Source: Bdellovibrionales bacterium (GTDB lineage Bacteria; Bdellovibrionota; Bdellovibrionia; Bdellovibrionales; UBA1609). From it: DNA of 35,522 nt. A model generated the notes under the pieces. It made no database searches. It saw nothing but the letters and a program-made list of their open reading frames with translations, and was not told the origin of the DNA. Below, in pieces: positions 4,538 through 12,597 of this stretch. The DNA lies in assembly GCA_020628165.1 (NCBI GenBank), contig JAHDFM010000009.1, forward strand, positions 1 through 35,522. The letters are read 5' to 3'. How positions within the stretch are numbered: the first letter of the stretch is position 1; the number at the start of each line of letters is the position of its first letter. Position numbers and translations under genes: made by a program.

Positions 4538-4816
4538 TTAAAATATAATTTTGTTGGTAATATTTTTGAAAGCAACAGGCCCTATTTTTTCTGTGGACGT
4601 GCTAAGTTCATTCTCACCAGAGACGGTAACGGTTTTATCTTTAGAGTTGATACTTTTGATTTGTTTTATGCAAACACCAAATTCTGGGTGATTAAAAACA
4701 ACAATGTCATTGGGTTTTAATTTTTGTTTGCGAAAGCATTTGTAGCCGAAGACAATTTGGCCATGCTTGAGTCTAGGTGACATGCTGTCACCTAGAACTT
4801 TGAAAAACTTAAACAC
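4538..4816 (-). CDS. sodX: nickel superoxide dismutase maturation protease SodX
   Basis: This small (92-residue) S24/S26-type serine peptidase is predicted to trim the leader of the nickel SOD encoded just upstream so that the mature protein starts at His. The Ser of GDSMSP (residues 9-14) is the likely nucleophile. Lys51, in a CIKQI block corresponding to the VKRI of signal peptidases, is the likely general base. There is no N-terminal membrane anchor, unlike ordinary signal peptidase I. The GTG start (4816-4814) follows the TAA of sodN without a gap, so translation is almost certainly coupled. Context makes SodX far more likely than a LexA-like or type I signal peptidase role. Confidence 0.85.
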   Translation of the reverse strand: MFKFFKVLGDSMSPRLKHGQIVFGYKCFRKQKLKPNDIVVFNHPEFGVCIKQIKSINSKDKTVTVSGENELSTSTEKIGPVAFKNITNKIIF

Positions 4817-5332
4817 TTATAGTTTTGGAAATACGATGTCTAAGTTGGGTTTGCAGTGATATTTCACTTTGCTAGATTCAATGCCTTTGGCTTGCCAAAA
4901 AGCAGTGGCAAAATCGTTCACTTTCTCTACTAATACGCGAGAAGCTTCTTTATCAACACTTTGTTTGCACTTTGAAGCCGTTGACATAATTTCGTGAGAT
5001 AAGGCGTGTAGGTTTGGGTTGTTTTCAAAGTGTTGGGCTTTGAAAAAATCACCCCAGATAATGCGAATTTCAGCTTTAACCAGCTCAGCTGATCTTTCTT
5101 TCTCTTCAACCATACGGCTAACAGTGTTGTTGTAAGCAAGGCCTCTTTCGCCGCCGTGTGAGCTGACTTCGTGATCTTCTTTTTCGATAAGAGTGTCCGT
5201 CATACGAGCCACAGTCATGGCAGCAATCTGTGCTGGGATCGGGTCGTAAATGCCACAAGGAACATCACAGTGGGCTTTCGCACCCTCGGGTTGAATGATT
5301 TTTTCAAAAGCAGCTTTGATAGATTTTTTCAT
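4817..5332 (-). CDS. sodN: nickel-containing superoxide dismutase
   Basis: This 171-residue protein carries the nickel-hook motif HCDVPCGIYDP at residues 21-31. After removal of the first 20 residues, the new N-terminal His together with Cys2 and Cys6 would ligate nickel and disproportionate superoxide to oxygen and peroxide. The 20-residue leader is not hydrophobic, so it is a propeptide and not a secretion signal, which implies a cytoplasmic enzyme. The rest is helical, as expected for the four-helix-bundle hexamer, though longer than the Streptomyces enzyme. The ATG has an AGGGAG ribosome binding site. sodX follows directly. No nickel-responsive operator was recognised upstream. Confidence 0.95.
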   Translation of the reverse strand: MKKSIKAAFEKIIQPEGAKAHCDVPCGIYDPIPAQIAAMTVARMTDTLIEKEDHEVSSHGGERGLAYNNTVSRMVEEKERSAELVKAEIRIIWGDFFKAQHFENNPNLHALSHEIMSTASKCKQSVDKEASRVLVEKVNDFATAFWQAKGIESSKVKYHCKPNLDIVFPKL

Positions 5333-5427
5333 AAATTCTCCCTGATAATATCTAAGGGAAATAATACATGAGTCCCCAGGGCTGTCAATTCGCTCTGAGG
5401 ATGTCGCTGCTTATTATTTAGAAAGAG

Positions 5428-6951
5428 TTAGGCTAGGATCTCATCGATGATTGTTTTCACTTCACCAACTTGCGGGTTACTAATGCCCATAGACTTCATC
5501 GCTGTTGTCATCAATGAAAGTGGGTGACGCTTTTTGCCGTCAATGTGTTGACCCGTTTTTATGCCTAGTTTTTTACCACCAGCATTAAAAGCAACCATAT
5601 TGTGAGTGGAGTGAGGCGACACACTACTTCCGTCACGCTCAAAGTCTTCACCATGACCAGCTTCAATCAAGTAAAGTAAATTGCTATGGTCAAGTAAACT
5701 ATCAGAGCCAATTTTAACTGCCTTGAATTGTTTGATCAGGTCAGCATAAATAGAGGCCTGCCATGCATGCCACTCCTTAAAAGCTTTTATATTTCCATTT
5801 TCTCCTAGCTTTGTAGAGTGTGTATTGCCATGAGCGTCTCGTCTTTCTTGTCCATATTCATAATTTTTATTTGTGACCCATTTGTCGAAATGTTCAATAA
5901 ATAGCCCAGAACGAGAATGGGAAAGTCCGTATGTAAAAACATGTGAGACCCCGCATGCAGCCGCCATAGTTATAATCTTATTAAGAATTGGAGCGCGTTC
6001 TTGCTCATTGCCATAATTAGTCTTACCACTGGTGTAATTGATATTTGGTTTGTTTGGAATTTGGCAAATAGCATTTTCAACCACAGTTTGATTGTTCACT
6101 TCGTTTTGCAGTTGCTTAATTTTTTCAAAATGTGTTTCTACAGTTTGACGATCGGCCGAAGAGATTGTCCGTTTGATGCTATTGTAATCTTCTAACATCA
6201 AATCAATGACAGACTTTTGCTCTAAAATTTTACTTTGTGCCTGCGATTGGGTTGCGTTGGGGTTGAGTCCATTAAATAAATTATTAAAGGCATTGGTTAA
6301 ATTGCGCTCAGGAAGTTCGTCCCTAGAGTTTTTCCATGAAATGGCTGGTCCATGACCAGACCCATGTTTTACTTTTTCTACATGAAAGGACAATAGCTTA
6401 CCTTTTTTACCCATAGCCTCATGGACTAAATGATCTGAAGTGGTTGTGTTCTGTGGTCGACGGTAGCCAGTGAATTTATCATTACTCACTCGGCCTGTGT
6501 ATTTGCCGTTCCCAGATAAGATTCCATGTAGGGCGACGGTGTGGTGAGAGGCAAAGTTAAGTGCGACATTGGCAAAAGCGCCTTCGGTACCATCAGCTCG
6601 TCCAATCCAGAGGTTGGTAAAGATATTCACATCGTTGCGAACGTCTTTCAACGGTCTTAGAGGAATGAGTGCATCTATGTTGTAATTGCTGCCAAAGCGA
6701 TCAGGGAAATAAAAGTTCCATTCATTTTGTTGGTAACCATTTTTATTGGAATTTAAAACTGCAGTTTTTCGCCAGCCCGCACCACTCGACAAACCATTCA
6801 GTGCATACAAATACACTGGTTGAAAGGGGAGACCGTTGGCCCAGGCCGTACCATTATTGTTAAGAAAACATTCAAGAAATGGGAGGGGAAGAACAAGCTT
6901 CCCAGCTCCTCTCAAAAAACGTCGACGACTGAACTCTTTTAGTTTGCTCAT
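5428..6951 (-). CDS. Tat-exported DUF1552 protein
   Basis: This 507-residue protein starts with a twin-arginine signal (SRRRFLRGAG, residues 8-17, then a hydrophobic stretch ending near AWA), so it is exported folded, probably with a cofactor. The body matches DUF1552, typically found beside DUF1592 proteins in Planctomycetes and Myxobacteria: FTNLWIGRADGTEGAF, a HHTVALHGIL block, and a C-terminal half with HSTHNMVAFNAGG and a PLSLMTTAMKSMG ending. No function is established for the family. Its start codon lies one base from the stop of the DUF1592 lipoprotein gene, so the two are co-translated. It contains many His, Asp and Glu residues that could bind metal, which is speculation. Confidence 0.85.
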   Translation of the reverse strand: MSKLKEFSRRRFLRGAGKLVLPLPFLECFLNNNGTAWANGLPFQPVYLYALNGLSSGAGWRKTAVLNSNKNGYQQNEWNFYFPDRFGSNYNIDALIPLRPLKDVRNDVNIFTNLWIGRADGTEGAFANVALNFASHHTVALHGILSGNGKYTGRVSNDKFTGYRRPQNTTTSDHLVHEAMGKKGKLLSFHVEKVKHGSGHGPAISWKNSRDELPERNLTNAFNNLFNGLNPNATQSQAQSKILEQKSVIDLMLEDYNSIKRTISSADRQTVETHFEKIKQLQNEVNNQTVVENAICQIPNKPNINYTSGKTNYGNEQERAPILNKIITMAAACGVSHVFTYGLSHSRSGLFIEHFDKWVTNKNYEYGQERRDAHGNTHSTKLGENGNIKAFKEWHAWQASIYADLIKQFKAVKIGSDSLLDHSNLLYLIEAGHGEDFERDGSSVSPHSTHNMVAFNAGGKKLGIKTGQHIDGKKRHPLSLMTTAMKSMGISNPQVGEVKTIIDEILA

Positions 6952-6952
6952 A

Positions 6953-8644
6953 TTATAAATCCCTTCGAATGAATTGCGGACTGTTAGCGATATCTAAGAT
7001 TAAGTTTTTAAATGTTTTGTTGTTGTTGAAAGTGCTCAGGTCTCTGTTGTAAGAAAGAACATGCTCATTGATTATGAATTTTCCGAAAGCATATGAGAGA
7101 ACTCTTTTCGTTAAACATAAGTTAATATCTTGATGGCCAGCCATAATGCGACCAAGCTCTGGCATGCTGTTAAAACCGACGCCATCAATTTGCCCTGGCT
7201 CAATGGTCGAACACTCTGGACGTGACTTTTCTTTGGTGCGGTACTGCCCAAGCATGTTGAAGCGCTCAAGACTCAAGCCGAGAGGCTCCATAAAAGAGTG
7301 ACATTCAAAACAGCTGCCCTTTGGGTGCAAGGTAGTTAGTTTTCGAGCCTCAATCTTACATTGATCTGTGAGCTTAGCTGCCGGGTCGTCATCAACATCG
7401 ACATCTGAGGGTGGAGGTAAGTGTTTGCACAGTAAGTCCTCTACGATTTGTAAACCACGTTTGATCGGGCTAGTTAGTTCTGGATCTCCTGTGTACTGGT
7501 AAGATAAAAATGATCCGTGACTTAAGATTCCAGAGCGCTGCCCTTGATAGTTGACCCAGTTAAAGTCATCGCCACTGGCACTCAAACCATAATGACTGGC
7601 AAGCTCCTTATTTAAATAAGAGCCAGAGCTAGTGAACAATTGAGTCCATGGTTTGTCGTTTTTGTAAATGATATCTTCAAGAAGGTTTTCAGTTTCTTTG
7701 GTGAACAGTGAAGCTAAACCGCGATCAATATTCATTTTGTTGATGCGAAAAAGTTCTTTGTTAATATTAAAGATATTGTTTTTTCCTCGGGCACTGTTGA
7801 AAAGTCTTAAAGCTTGGGTTTTGCGAACAGTTTGATCTGAGAGTTGATTATTACTGGCAAGGTCTAACAGCTCAGCATCAGGAGTGGAGCCAGTGATGAA
7901 GTACGACAAGCGACTTGCAATTTCATAATCGTTGAGAGTGTATGAGTTGCCACTTTTTGAACCTACCTCTTGCCTTAAAACAAATGAAGGGCTCTGAATG
8001 AGAGCCGATATAAATAATCTCACCCCTTTATAGCCCTCAGATTTAAAAGAGTTTAAAAAGGCAATGTATTTGTTTTTTAAGTTGCTATCGATAGGTTTGC
8101 GAAAGATCTTAAGTGGCAGTTCGTTGGTGATACTAATGATGCAAGCATCAGTCAGGTTGTTATTAAGACAAGGCACTGTTTGCAAAAGTTTAGTGTTGGT
8201 GAGCTTGCCATCGACAAGGCTAGCAACTTGCTTCAGGCCATCAACGTGGACCCGAGAAACGTTAATATCTTCATCTTGATAGTTGGTGAACATGTTTTCT
8301 GAAAAACTAGGAAGCAAGTTGTTGCTATAAACTTCACTGAGACCAATATTAAAAATATCCTCTAGAGAATATTGAACCTCTTTAGCCGTGAGCATTCGGA
8401 ATGGAACACTTTTATTGCCGCCAAGTTTTTGACTGCCTTTAAAACTTGTACCTTGAGTTGGTGGTTCAACATTGCCTCCCGAGATAGGTGAGGTAGAACT
8501 GCCTCCAGCACTAAAGTTGTCGGTATCAAGCGATTCGAAGTCATTGTTGCTGACAAATCCGCCTTGAATACTGCAGTTGTTGTATAAAAATAGTATTAAA
8601 AAACAGGAAGTAAAAACTAGGACATTGCGCTTAAATTTTTTCAT
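6953..8644 (-). CDS. DUF1592/DUF1588/DUF1585 lipoprotein with c-type haem motif
   Basis: This 563-residue lipoprotein (lipobox LYNNC, Cys24) belongs to the planctomycete-type cytochrome family. Blocks in order are: FRMLTAKEVQYSLEDIF (the DUF1587-like start); YEIASRLSYFITGSTPD (DUF1592); LSHGSFLSYQYTGDPELTSP and LLCKHLPPPSDV, with the haem site CFECH at residues 445-449 and PLGLSLERFNMLG (DUF1588); and a C-terminal DUF1585 region with the LCLTKRVLSYAFGKF block. A Ser/Gly-rich linker follows the lipidated Cys. The haem motif implies maturation outside the cytoplasm. It forms a pair with the DUF1552 gene downstream. The family's activity is unknown, and an electron-transfer or oxidative role is the obvious guess. 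Confidence 0.88.
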   Translation of the reverse strand: MKKFKRNVLVFTSCFLILFLYNNCSIQGGFVSNNDFESLDTDNFSAGGSSTSPISGGNVEPPTQGTSFKGSQKLGGNKSVPFRMLTAKEVQYSLEDIFNIGLSEVYSNNLLPSFSENMFTNYQDEDINVSRVHVDGLKQVASLVDGKLTNTKLLQTVPCLNNNLTDACIISITNELPLKIFRKPIDSNLKNKYIAFLNSFKSEGYKGVRLFISALIQSPSFVLRQEVGSKSGNSYTLNDYEIASRLSYFITGSTPDAELLDLASNNQLSDQTVRKTQALRLFNSARGKNNIFNINKELFRINKMNIDRGLASLFTKETENLLEDIIYKNDKPWTQLFTSSGSYLNKELASHYGLSASGDDFNWVNYQGQRSGILSHGSFLSYQYTGDPELTSPIKRGLQIVEDLLCKHLPPPSDVDVDDDPAAKLTDQCKIEARKLTTLHPKGSCFECHSFMEPLGLSLERFNMLGQYRTKEKSRPECSTIEPGQIDGVGFNSMPELGRIMAGHQDINLCLTKRVLSYAFGKFIINEHVLSYNRDLSTFNNNKTFKNLILDIANSPQFIRRDL

Positions 8645-8725
8645 AACTTAATTCTAGCAACTATTCGGTTTTATTGAAAAAAATCTATATTTTTAGTTTC
8701 ATTTCGTCATCATATGAGACACATT

Positions 8726-8746
8726 CCTGTCTAAGCATTGGACAGG
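8726..8746. other. small hairpin upstream of the DUF1592 gene
   Basis: CCTGTC (8726-8731) pairs with GACAGG (8741-8746) around a nine-base loop. It lies in the 210 bases between the cytochrome gene's 3' end and the lipoprotein gene's start, all on the minus strand. It has no T-run. It may be part of a leader or a weak stop. Confidence 0.3.
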
Positions 8747-8854
8747 CTGGTCATTTTGAAAATGATTTCGACAATTTTTGATGACTAACTTATAGACTAT
8801 GAAACAGTTAGGTGTGATGTGCATTTTTGGTGGTCATTGGGTATATAAAGTCAG

Positions 8855-10519
8855 TTAAAGAGTTTGCAAAAAGTAGATTAAGTTGATTTTTTCACTCTGG
8901 CTCAGGATCTCATTGCCGTCTTCATCGAGAAGTATTTTGTTGTCGTGCCCTTTGTTGTTCAACCCAGGCTTTGTACTATCAAAATAGAGTTCAGACTTTT
9001 TATTTAATTTTACTTGAGGGTAACCATTGCAGCTAAGGTCAAAGTCAGTGTCAATATTCTCTGGCAGTGTGGCCATGTATTGTTTAGGCCTTTGGTTGCC
9101 TGGGCTTAAAAGGTCACACAATGATGGGATAGAGTTATTGTGAAAGTACGGGTACCTTGCCCAAACACCAACGAGTGGTGGTGGAACGTAGCCTTTTTGT
9201 GGTTTGATAACAATGTTATTTTTTTTAGAAAATTGTAAGTCATTGAGGGGTAATAAGTGTTGCATGGCTTGGTATCTATTGCTGCTTGTGCCCACGTCAT
9301 TTGATTTCGTGTTTTCTGAATAAATGATGTTTGTGGTTTGAATAAGGTCGTACAATGGTAGGTCAGGATTTGTATCCCAGGCCTTCTCATAGGTGCCGTG
9401 ACACTTTGAGCACATTTGCGCGTAAATCTTTTGCCCTTCTTGCAAACGGTCAAGCTCAGCAAAATAGTTGATGTCGACAAAGTCAGCCATCTTTGGTGCT
9501 TCTGAAGCAAAAACAGCTGTGGTTAGGTGATCAATGATTGCTTTATATTTATCAGTCCAAGATTCAAGCTCCTCAAGGTCTGCGCCTCGGCCCACCTCAT
9601 TCCATAAGATGTTTGTTAAAATAGGGTTGCCAGAGACGACCGATCCATCTGCTAACCATTTGTTTTTGTATTTTACATTCCACCAAACCATGGGCTTTGA
9701 GTCTGCAATGAATGTGTGGAGAGGGTGGCTCTTTGTGCTGTATGGTGAGTCTGGAAAACTTGCAATGGCGTCTTTGTTTCTTTTTGCAAGTGATAGAGAA
9801 ACTTGCGCTAACGATGTGTCTAGCCCCAATTGAACGGGTATTTTTGCTCCGATGTAATCAAGTTGTAATTTAGCTTTTTTAAGCATCGCAAATTCATCGT
9901 CTTTGAAATCAGCAATGAGTTTAAATGTGTTCACCGAATATTTTTTAAAAACATCTTTCACTTGTACAAAAAAATCGTTGGGGCGAGGAAATCGTGTTGA
10001 TAATCCAATGACAGCTTTGCCAAATAGATTGCTTGTGTGGCATTGGGCACAGCTAATGGTGAAGGCGCGCGCATTGTTGATTTCTTTCAGGGTGAACCCC
10101 ATTTTTTGAATGTCACTATTAAATGGTATGTTGCCAGGAATGTAGTAGGGGAGTGGGTCTAATTCTGTTGAGTACTTAGGAAAGTCTGTGAGACCTAAAC
10201 GATCTTGCAGCTCAAATAAACTATCACTTTTGGTTAAGTTCTTAATATATTTTTTAGCAACAACTCGAATAGGGTTAAAAGTTTTTTTACTGTAAATATC
10301 GAAAAAGGGTTGGTAAGGAAAATGTATACCAGTGTCAACTGGATAGAGTAAACTGTAACCAATGCCAAAATCTAGAGACTTTTTAAAGTTGTCTTCACTG
10401 AGGGCGAGTGGGTTGTTGAGCTGATGTTCGATCAATAGTTCATCTTCGACCCAAGTGCGTGGTTGCGCGTAAGTCAACGAAGTAATTAAAAATATGACTA
10501 TTAAAATGGATCCCCTCAT
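8855..10519 (-). CDS. secreted di-haem c-type cytochrome, RoxA/CCP-like
   Basis: This 554-residue protein has a cleavable signal peptide (residues 1-18, ending TYA). It has two haem c sites: CAQCH at 157-161 and CSKCH at 370-374. A GVWARYPYFHNNSIPSLCDLL block lies near residue 460; its pattern (Y-hydrophobic-HN-S-P-L-DLL) is typical of di-haem peroxidase-like and rubber-oxygenase (RoxA/RoxB) proteins. The haem spacing of 213 residues is close to that remembered for RoxA, but the protein is shorter. It could be an oxygenase, a peroxidase or an electron carrier, and the substrate cannot be read from sequence. It sits 210 bases upstream of the DUF1592/DUF1552 pair in the same direction, which suggests a shared role. 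Confidence 0.8.
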   Translation of the reverse strand: MRGSILIVIFLITSLTYAQPRTWVEDELLIEHQLNNPLALSEDNFKKSLDFGIGYSLLYPVDTGIHFPYQPFFDIYSKKTFNPIRVVAKKYIKNLTKSDSLFELQDRLGLTDFPKYSTELDPLPYYIPGNIPFNSDIQKMGFTLKEINNARAFTISCAQCHTSNLFGKAVIGLSTRFPRPNDFFVQVKDVFKKYSVNTFKLIADFKDDEFAMLKKAKLQLDYIGAKIPVQLGLDTSLAQVSLSLAKRNKDAIASFPDSPYSTKSHPLHTFIADSKPMVWWNVKYKNKWLADGSVVSGNPILTNILWNEVGRGADLEELESWTDKYKAIIDHLTTAVFASEAPKMADFVDINYFAELDRLQEGQKIYAQMCSKCHGTYEKAWDTNPDLPLYDLIQTTNIIYSENTKSNDVGTSSNRYQAMQHLLPLNDLQFSKKNNIVIKPQKGYVPPPLVGVWARYPYFHNNSIPSLCDLLSPGNQRPKQYMATLPENIDTDFDLSCNGYPQVKLNKKSELYFDSTKPGLNNKGHDNKILLDEDGNEILSQSEKINLIYFLQTL

Positions 10520-10734
10520 AGAAATGCATTTTAGTTACAAAATTAAAAAATAAACAAATGAAAGTTTGGACTGTTATTTTTATAATTCACCACAGTAAAA
10601 AAAATTTACTAACAATTTAAACATTTTTAAGTATTTAGGAAAGAGTTCTAACTTATTCGATCTATATATTATTAGTGATGTTTTTGCTTACTTTTTATTC
10701 CACATATTTATTTATGCGAATATAATTAGCATTA

Positions 10735-12597
10735 TTAGCGTGTTTGATACTCTGACCATTCTATCACACCAGCCGGTTCACGGGTAAAGTGCATCAAGGA
10801 GTCATCATTTTTTAAACTCACATTGGCGTTGAGCCAACGGGTGAGTATCTGTGCTTCTACATCTGTGGTTGGTGGCGTGATTTCAAACGGTAAATCCTTC
10901 ATGTTGAGTTCGATCACTGAGCGTTTAAAATCCTCGTCTCGTGCGTAAAATGGATCTTGGTAAGGTTCGCCAGTAAAGATTTTAAACTCGATAACTAGAC
11001 GATCTGAATTTGCAAATGTAAGTAGTCTAATATTTGAATACTTTTCGCCATAGCGCAAAGGTGGAAAGGTGAAGTTAATGCCTTCTTGTTTTTTTGTATA
11101 AGAAAGGCTTGGACTGTGCTTGATAAAAAAACTGTTTAAAATTTTACTTATGGTGTGCCAACCGTAAGACTCCTGCACAGCGCAGTGCGATCCTTTGCGT
11201 ACATTAAGGATTTGTAAATTGTCATTTTGACTGGCGTCGATCAATTGTGAATTGCGTTTATAACGAACTACGGGGTCGTTGTTAGATGCAAAAATAAATG
11301 TTGGAGTTTCTACAAGGTGGGCAAAATTGTTGTAGTCGTTGTAATAATAATAGTCATCAGTGCTTTCGACCTTTACACCTGTGAATGGGGCTAAAAAATC
11401 TTTTTCATCAAGAGTGTTGATGTAATCCACATTTATACCAGCGAGTTTTCCTGCCAAGTGTTTTCTTTTTGTTCTTTTACTGAGATCAATGTGGTTTTTT
11501 AGGTATGGGATATTATTGTAATTGTCTTTAATAAGGTTCATCACATTGTGGCTCACGACATAGCCAATAAGGCCCCGGGCTGTGACATCTTTAACACTGT
11601 TTCTGACGTTAGTGACCGGACAAAAACCAATCACACTGTTAATGATTTTTTCGTCGAGATGATCATTGTAGATTCCAGAAAAAAGCGCTCCACTTCCTCC
11701 TAAACTGATTCCTAAAACGTGAATATCGGAAATGTAATTTTTAAAATATGAGTTTTTCTTGGCCCATTTCGCCACTTTGATGATCTCTTGTCCTTCAATA
11801 AAGCCACCTATATTGACTCGCTTGTTTTGCTGAATGTTGCGTGAGCCAGTATGATTGGCAATGAGCATAATATGAAAAGGGCCTGAGTCGTATAGATTGG
11901 CTGTGATCGTGTTATTAATGGTTGAGCTTTTGCCATTGCAAAAAACGCCGCACTTAACGATAACAAGGGGTCTTACTTTGCTGGGTTTAAGCGCGAGAAA
12001 GCCCTCTAAGCTTTCGCCGTTATCAAATTTTACTTTGAAGGGGTGAGTGTTTTTATTGCTCAAAACTTTGTACTTTCTAAGACTCACTTTTGCTAAGTCG
12101 GCGTACTTGTTGCGAAAGGAGTTCACAAGTCTGCGATCACAGCTTTTGAAATATGTTTTAAGAAGTTGATCAAATTCGTTAAGGTCTTGTGAGGCAAGTA
12201 ACTTTTCTTCTAAGTAGTACGGGTGACAGCGTTCACGAATGACATGTTTAAATTGGTTGGTGATGAAGCGGCTTCCGTATTTCTTTTTGATCTGTTTGCT
12301 TGAGATAGTGCGTTTTTGAATGGTGAGTGGTTGTTTGTAATTAAAAAATTGAAAGTCGCTTGAAAAAGCATTTTGATCATTGTTTTCTGGGTTTTGCGGA
12401 AAAGGAGTCTCGCTCAAGCTTTCGTTTTTATTGTACGATCGGTCCACCTGGCCTTGTTTGTTCAAGACTATGCCTACGATGTCGCCTTCAGAGCTGGTAA
12501 AGCTGCCTGACTTATCTAGCCATTCTACAGTTTTTACTTCTGAAAATACGTTGTAAGAAAAAAATAAAACAAACATTATCAAAATTTTTACTATCAT
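10735..12597 (-). CDS. secreted alpha/beta hydrolase (esterase/peptidase-like)
   Basis: This 620-residue protein has an N-terminal signal peptide (about residues 1-19, FFSYNVFSE). The alpha/beta-hydrolase core runs from about residue 185 to 500. The oxyanion strand is PLVIVKCGVFCNG, the nucleophile elbow is GISLGG with Ser298, an acid lies in FASNNDPVVRYK and the His in KGSHCAVQ. An N-terminal region of about 180 residues and a C-terminal region of about 110 residues are not recognised. The substrate is unknown. It lies 215 bases upstream of the di-haem cytochrome on the same strand, so it may belong to the same exported module or simply be a neighbour. Confidence 0.8.
   Translation of the reverse strand: MIVKILIMFVLFFSYNVFSEVKTVEWLDKSGSFTSSEGDIVGIVLNKQGQVDRSYNKNESLSETPFPQNPENNDQNAFSSDFQFFNYKQPLTIQKRTISSKQIKKKYGSRFITNQFKHVIRERCHPYYLEEKLLASQDLNEFDQLLKTYFKSCDRRLVNSFRNKYADLAKVSLRKYKVLSNKNTHPFKVKFDNGESLEGFLALKPSKVRPLVIVKCGVFCNGKSSTINNTITANLYDSGPFHIMLIANHTGSRNIQQNKRVNIGGFIEGQEIIKVAKWAKKNSYFKNYISDIHVLGISLGGSGALFSGIYNDHLDEKIINSVIGFCPVTNVRNSVKDVTARGLIGYVVSHNVMNLIKDNYNNIPYLKNHIDLSKRTKRKHLAGKLAGINVDYINTLDEKDFLAPFTGVKVESTDDYYYYNDYNNFAHLVETPTFIFASNNDPVVRYKRNSQLIDASQNDNLQILNVRKGSHCAVQESYGWHTISKILNSFFIKHSPSLSYTKKQEGINFTFPPLRYGEKYSNIRLLTFANSDRLVIEFKIFTGEPYQDPFYARDEDFKRSVIELNMKDLPFEITPPTTDVEAQILTRWLNANVSLKNDDSLMHFTREPAGVIEWSEYQTR

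Follow-up and report, generated by a model that had tools for sequence, protein, structure and literature searches.

A recurrent DUF1592/DUF1552 gene cassette in a Bdellovibrionales genome and its probable independence from the adjacent cytochrome and hydrolase genes

Gene content of the locus

We analyzed a stretch of 35,522 nucleotides (hereafter the window) from a Bdellovibrionales bacterium (assembly GCA_020628165.1, contig JAHDFM010000009.1), focusing on two genes that encode a DUF1592 lipoprotein and a DUF1552 protein and on the cytochrome and hydrolase genes located upstream of them. The source genome (G000; 3.19 Mb in 56 contigs, 99% complete) is near Bdellovibrio; it was compared with its congeners G002 and G003, and gene occurrence was surveyed across 99 genomes. 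A first-pass annotation of the sequence had described four exported proteins encoded in the same direction, two of them by translationally coupled genes, and had proposed that they constitute a single redox/hydrolase module. We recovered all four open reading frames (ORFs), which are transcribed in the following order:

10735-12597, minus strand: secreted hydrolase gene (ORF), first in transcription order
8855-10519, minus strand: RoxA/MauG-like di-haem c cytochrome gene (ORF and Pfam), second in transcription order
6953-8644, minus strand: DUF1592 lipoprotein gene (PSD5/PSD4/PSCyt3/PSD2 architecture) with a single c-type haem site, the leading gene of the cassette
5428-6951, minus strand: gene of the DUF1552 (HXXSHH) protein exported by twin-arginine translocation (Tat), second gene of the cassette

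Within these genes, the following sites were located; the three haem motifs lie where they had been annotated:

10037-10051, minus strand: N-terminal haem site CAQCH (H161) of the cytochrome, H161 invariant in 21/21
9398-9412, minus strand: C-terminal haem site CSKCH (H374) of the cytochrome, H374 invariant in 21/21
8573-8575, minus strand: Cys24 of the DUF1592 protein after YNN, a non-canonical lipobox (YNNC), N23-C24 invariant in 15/15 homologues
7298-7312, minus strand: CFECH motif, the haem c attachment site in the DUF1592 protein; C445, C448 and H449 invariant
6922-6927, minus strand: twin arginine of the DUF1552 Tat signal (R9, R10), invariant in 27/27 homologues
5818-5832, minus strand: H374-GNT-H378 of the DUF1552 protein, putative metal ligands, both histidines invariant in 27/27 homologues
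5611-5613, minus strand: H447, third invariant histidine of the DUF1552 protein (27/27 homologues)

The DUF1592 and DUF1552 genes are separated by a single nucleotide (TAA-T-ATG), which is consistent with the coupling that had been suggested for them. The gaps between the cytochrome and DUF1592 genes (210 bp) and between the hydrolase and cytochrome genes (215 bp) are much longer. Counts of promoter-like and terminator-like sites across the region did not exceed those of shuffled sequences and are uninformative on the borders of transcripts. We observed no break in base composition that would mark the cassette as foreign, the guanine-plus-cytosine content being 0.34-0.45 over the region.

Linkage of the four genes across genomes

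The source genome contains 16 DUF1552 and 16 DUF1592 loci, and every one of them adjoins a member of the other family (16/16). These pairs are scattered over the genome, each among unrelated genes, and their number is the maximum of all the genomes searched (relatives possess 0 to 7). Among 32 complete cassettes from the source genome and its relatives, 30 have the DUF1592 gene in front, and the gap between the two genes is mostly of -1 to 15 nt. The distance matrices of the two families are also correlated, both across 13 pairs of the source genome itself (Mantel r = 0.58; none of 5000 permutations as high) and across 32 pairs (r = 0.83; none of 2000 permutations as high). That the two DUF families belong together, as had been annotated, is thus borne out by their adjacency and their correlated divergence, and on this basis it is very probable that the two proteins act together.

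Two further observations concern the cassettes themselves. One of the 16 (locus L023, G000:C18) is broken, with a stop inside the DUF1592 frame and the ORFs split. In G062 and G025 (L134 5787-7965; L147 3089-5380), a DUF pair is accompanied by two similar-looking extra neighbours, a lipoprotein of 243-262 amino acids with an NNC/QNC motif and a protein of 485-495 amino acids; their likeness was assessed visually, using only their starts and lengths.

The congeneric genomes separate the cassette from the two other genes. In G003, the same neighbourhood comprises a haloacid dehalogenase (HAD) phosphatase, ribosomal protein L31, the hydrolase (49% identical) and the cytochrome (59% identical), followed by an Fe-superoxide dismutase (Fe-SOD), three other genes and the same acyl-CoA dehydrogenase; the DUF pair is absent there. 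The orthologous pair of G003 (74% and 61% identical) lies on another contig (C158), and its four left-hand neighbours recur in the same order in G000:C40 and G002:C31. In G000, these four genes are followed by a lipoprotein gene and no cassette, and the G002 contig ends at this point. The counterpart neighbourhood of G002 consists of the acyl-CoA dehydrogenase, hydrolase, L31 and HAD genes and includes neither the cytochrome nor the DUF pair. Because L31 adjoins the hydrolase in another genus as well (G007), it is L31, and not the cytochrome, that is the older neighbour of the hydrolase.

The occurrence of the genes across genomes points in the same direction. Cytochrome orthologues were identified in 37 of the 99 genomes, 24 of which lack DUF1552, and the two co-occur about as often as chance predicts (13 genomes vs 12.7 expected; Fisher p = 1.0). 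Across the order, the 22 other cytochrome loci share no conserved neighbours beyond single coincidences, and a conserved operon around the cytochrome was therefore rejected. None of the 15 other cassettes of the source genome presents a cytochrome or hydrolase homologue alongside.

These data bear directly on the annotated four-gene module, in which the hydrolase would free a lipid or polymer, the cytochrome would oxygenate it and the DUF pair would pass electrons. Its appeal lies in the common strand, in the export of all four products, in the adjacency of hydrolase and cytochrome in G003 as well, in a hydrolase homologue found beside a DUF pair in G048, and in the fact that the RoxA relatives PA2077 and PA2078 (FadCcp enzymes) oxygenate fatty acids (PMC4496055). 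It has to contend, however, with the two long intergenic gaps, with the congeners, where G003 keeps the hydrolase and cytochrome together with the pair elsewhere and G002 retains only the hydrolase, with the chance-level co-occurrence of cytochrome and DUF1552, with the cytochrome's lack of conserved neighbours and with the 15 cassettes that stand without either gene. The outcome that the first-pass annotation itself had named as refuting, a failure of cytochrome and hydrolase to co-occur with the DUF pair elsewhere, is largely what we observed. We rejected the four-gene module on the grounds of congener synteny and occurrence, and consider it very improbable.

Several observations weigh against a complete separation. 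The hydrolase homologue of G048, a member of another family of the same order, is 26% identical and lies immediately 5' of a DUF1552-DUF1592 pair (L128 9370-14882), whose gene order is the reverse of that of most cassettes. Two hydrolase-DUF proximities of 2.5 kb or less were found where about 0.12 were expected (P about 0.007, a rough and post hoc estimate on fragmented contigs); since these are improbable by chance, a link between hydrolase and cassette keeps some plausibility. The hydrolase and cytochrome co-occur in 23 genomes vs 17.9 expected (p = 0.04, kinship ignored). On balance, we estimate at about 0.85 the probability that the locus holds two independent units, the DUF1592/DUF1552 cassette and the hydrolase-cytochrome neighbourhood. 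The cytochrome and hydrolase lie beside the cassette by local rearrangement.

Properties of the encoded proteins

The DUF1552 protein matches PF07586 with 114.3 bits (gathering score 30). Its version of the HXXSHH motif reads H-GNT-H-S, and the first and second histidines of the motif are invariant in the 27 homologues, but the third is not. D173 and C296 are near-invariant, and H137 is present in 20/27 homologues. A model of the protein was built with AlphaFold2 from these homologues, with a predicted local distance difference test (pLDDT) score of 71 and a predicted template modelling score of 0.76. Foldseek ranked sulfatases and their relatives highest, and residues 37-507 yielded VIA Z scores between 15 and 16.8 against sulfatases, phosphonate monoester hydrolase and nucleotide pyrophosphatases/phosphodiesterases (best match: Z 16.8, root mean square deviation 4.0 over 281 residues), and a phosphoethanolamine transferase was also among the fold matches. 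The DUF1552 protein is thus predicted to adopt the alkaline phosphatase/sulfatase fold.

We searched by eye for the catalytic residues of this superfamily. No column with an invariant Ser/Thr/Cys nucleophile or a D-[HN]-G pair was seen among the 27 homologues, and an hhalign comparison with sulfatases reached a probability of 23%, too weak for placing catalytic residues. After H137, the sequence reads LTG as in sulfatases (by eye), which suggests that a histidine takes the place of the nucleophile. The H-x3-H motif and the later histidine resemble the D-x3-H and His ligands of metal site 1 of alkaline phosphatase, and this likeness makes it likely that DUF1552 holds a metal. The suggestion of the first-pass annotation that Tat export of this protein points to a metal or cofactor is accordingly plausible, given the modelled fold and the invariant H374, H378 and H447.

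The same fold raises the possibility that DUF1552 is a conventional hydrolase of the alkaline phosphatase superfamily, sulfatase-like or phosphatase-like, acting on envelope polysaccharide or lipid, with DUF1592 as its anchor and the haem in a structural role. All of the fold matches listed above would fit such an enzyme, and in Verrucomicrobia sulfatase genes have been reported close to PSCyt genes, as have carbohydrate-binding modules fused to PSCyt proteins (PMC5615132). The source genome, which has the most DUF1552 copies, also presents a single weak match to the PF00884 sulfatase family, vs three in G002 and two in G003. The position of the sulfatase nucleophile, however, is occupied by no invariant Cys, Ser or Thr but mostly by H137, and no D-[HN]-G pair is conserved, as far as can be read by eye across so weak a sulfatase alignment. 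We take this possibility seriously while regarding it as rather doubtful.

The DUF1592 protein matches PF07631 (84 bits) and PF07627 (72.4 bits), both above their cut-offs, as well as PF07624. Besides the haem site, C159/C168, C406 and C510 are invariant and could form disulfides. The model of this protein is largely helical (pLDDT 76) and gave no Foldseek match (best E 3.4). For residues 76-258, mostly phycobilisome linker domains came out on top with Z of at most 5.7, below the trusted level and useful as a lead only. Among the ORFs of the loci retrieved, Asn was the most frequent residue preceding the first cysteine after the N-terminal hydrophobic stretch (N in 31 cases, G in 28, S in 22 and A in 15). 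The Asn-Cys pattern, [FY][QN]NC (window 8573-8583; L152 5592-7532; L119 9890-11290; L138 4108-6993) was also observed in non-DUF1592 proteins, in a sample that is enriched in DUF1592 loci. It possibly represents a lineage-specific lipobox or sorting signal.

The cytochrome (554 amino acids) is above the Pfam cut-off for the RoxA-like family PF21419. In a single scan, only three loci came from named relatives, namely Pseudobdellovibrio, Bdellovibrio qaytius and a metagenome-assembled genome of Bacteriovoracia. H161, H374, H460 (in the MauG motif PYFHNNSIP) and H525 are invariant in 21/21 orthologues, and align with H195, H394, H517 and H641 of RoxA (residue table of PMC10837239), so that the haem plan is of the RoxA/MauG/FadCcp type. 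The curated NCBIfam models stayed below their cut-offs: the di-haem cytochrome c peroxidase (CCP) model NF040606 scored 88.8 bits vs a cut-off of 150, the RoxA equivalog model 40.9 bits vs a cut-off of 1000, and the RoxB and RoxC models were below theirs as well. The position of RoxA Phe317 is occupied by Trp306 in all 21 cytochromes, in a stretch where the alignment is weak, and that of RoxA Trp302 by Ala, Ser or Leu (residue 290). The model scores and the Phe317 position led us to reject a rubber oxygenase identity. By sequence, the protein belongs to the RoxA/MauG-like di-haem cytochromes; it could be either a dioxygenase or a peroxidase, and its N-terminal haem is the probable site of O2 or peroxide binding.

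No Pfam or NCBIfam family matched the hydrolase, and the search of PDB profiles returned only marginal matches (E 0.01), which were polyester hydrolases and lipases. Its triad of S298 (in GISLGG), D441 and H471 is nevertheless intact and invariant in 18/18 homologues; a secreted serine hydrolase of the alpha/beta-hydrolase type, as annotated, is well supported by these residues. One could imagine that hydrolase and cytochrome form a lipid-oxidation pair restricted to the genus, the former releasing acyl chains and the latter oxygenating them in the manner of RoxA or FadCcp. Both genes are adjacent and in the same order in G000 and G003, and the cytochrome has its haem ligands and MauG motif in common with RoxA and FadCcp. 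Outside the genus, however, they are not adjacent, G002 has the hydrolase without the cytochrome, and the replacement of the oxygen-stabilising Phe317 by Trp means that RoxA activity is not to be assumed. We consider such a pair improbable.

Two additional genes lie on the other side of the cassette:

4817-5332, minus strand: Ni-superoxide dismutase (sodN), 3' of the DUF cassette and outside it
4538-4816, minus strand: short signal-peptidase-like ORF with a GDSMSP motif, read by eye with an assumed GTG start

The latter is a probable Ni-SOD maturation protease. The strongest promoter-like site in the region (TTGACA-16-TATTAT, 11/12) is found at 5361-5388, directly 5' of sodN. The source genome presents no Fe/Mn-SOD match besides this Ni-SOD, and G003 carries its Fe-SOD (L085 5537-6112) in the same interval, between the cytochrome and the acyl-CoA dehydrogenase. 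Ni-SOD was found in only 2 of the 99 relatives, the other case being G024, where Ni-SOD and DUF1552 lie on separate contigs.

Proposed function and relation to known systems

We propose that each of the 16 diverged cassettes encodes its own envelope complex. DUF1592 would be anchored as a lipoprotein with one c-type haem, and DUF1552, exported in its folded state by Tat, would bind to it. The histidine-rich site of DUF1552 (H374, H378, H447 and usually H137 and D173) would hold a metal that binds the substrate, and DUF1592 would supply it with electrons or take them up. Different paralogues may serve different substrates derived from the envelope or from prey. The hydrolase-cytochrome neighbourhood would be a second and unrelated unit, which the congener G003 carries with no cassette beside it.

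The histidine-rich site, the Tat export and the haem are what lead us to favour an envelope complex combining metal and haem redox centres over a hydrolase with its anchor, at odds slightly better than even. Two points count against it. Confidence in the DUF1552 model is weak around the histidine loop, and no other His or Met conserved among the DUF1592 homologues could serve as the sixth haem ligand, which weakens the case for electron transfer through this protein. A broader proposal is that DUF1552 and DUF1592 represent a widespread class of two-component envelope redox enzymes. An alkaline-phosphatase fold would have evolved into a metal oxidase, reductase or oxygenase with histidine ligands, electronically connected to a lipoprotein that carries haem c, and the 16 copies would perhaps be directed at prey envelope material. 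We regard this as unlikely. The data show the gene pairing, the linkage differences among congeners, the conservation of residues and the modelled fold of DUF1552; contact between the two proteins, the metal, electron transfer and the substrates are inferred.

Planctomycetes and Verrucomicrobia have many uncharacterised gene pairs of the PSCyt/DUF type, and in the literature searched we found no paper that gives DUF1552 or DUF1592 a function. The present case offers a clean unit for experiments: a single pair in place of four genes, together with a fold prediction for DUF1552 and 16 natural variants in one genome. The residues to mutate are H374, H378, H447 and D173 in DUF1552 and C445/H449 in DUF1592. 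It also calls for caution, as adjacent exported genes should not be taken for a pathway.

Compared with known systems, DUF1552 resembles the alkaline phosphatase/sulfatase superfamily in its predicted fold and differs from it by its three invariant histidines and by the absence, as seen here, of a conserved nucleophile or D-[HN]-G pair. The cytochrome resembles RoxA, RoxB, RoxC and FadCcp in its two CxxCH sites, MauG motif, C-terminal His ligand and PF21419 domain; unlike the Rox proteins, it is shorter, scores far under the model cut-offs and differs at the Phe317 and Trp302 positions. Its likeness to the di-haem CCP of NF040606 is confined to the C-terminal part (residues 411-553).

The closest counterparts of the cassette are the PSCyt3/PSD proteins (DUF1592, DUF1588, DUF1585, DUF1595) of Planctomycetes and Verrucomicrobia, which combine the same Pfam domains and a single CxxCH in one polypeptide, occur in multiple copies per genome and have genes adjacent to those of another conserved family. 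The pairing of PSCyt3 with a gene family of undefined function is already published: in Verrucomicrobia, PSCyt3 genes usually lie beside a family of genes annotated without function, for which no explanation was given (PMC5615132). What is new here is the separation of the pair from the cytochrome and hydrolase, its 16-fold expansion in a relative of Bdellovibrio, the list of residues and the fold prediction for DUF1552. In contrast to the PSCyt3/PSD systems, the DUF1592 copy of the window carries no carbohydrate-binding module by Pfam, and the genes reside in a Bdellovibrio-like host, where they form 16 isolated cassettes of two genes each and the lipobox reads NNC/QNC.

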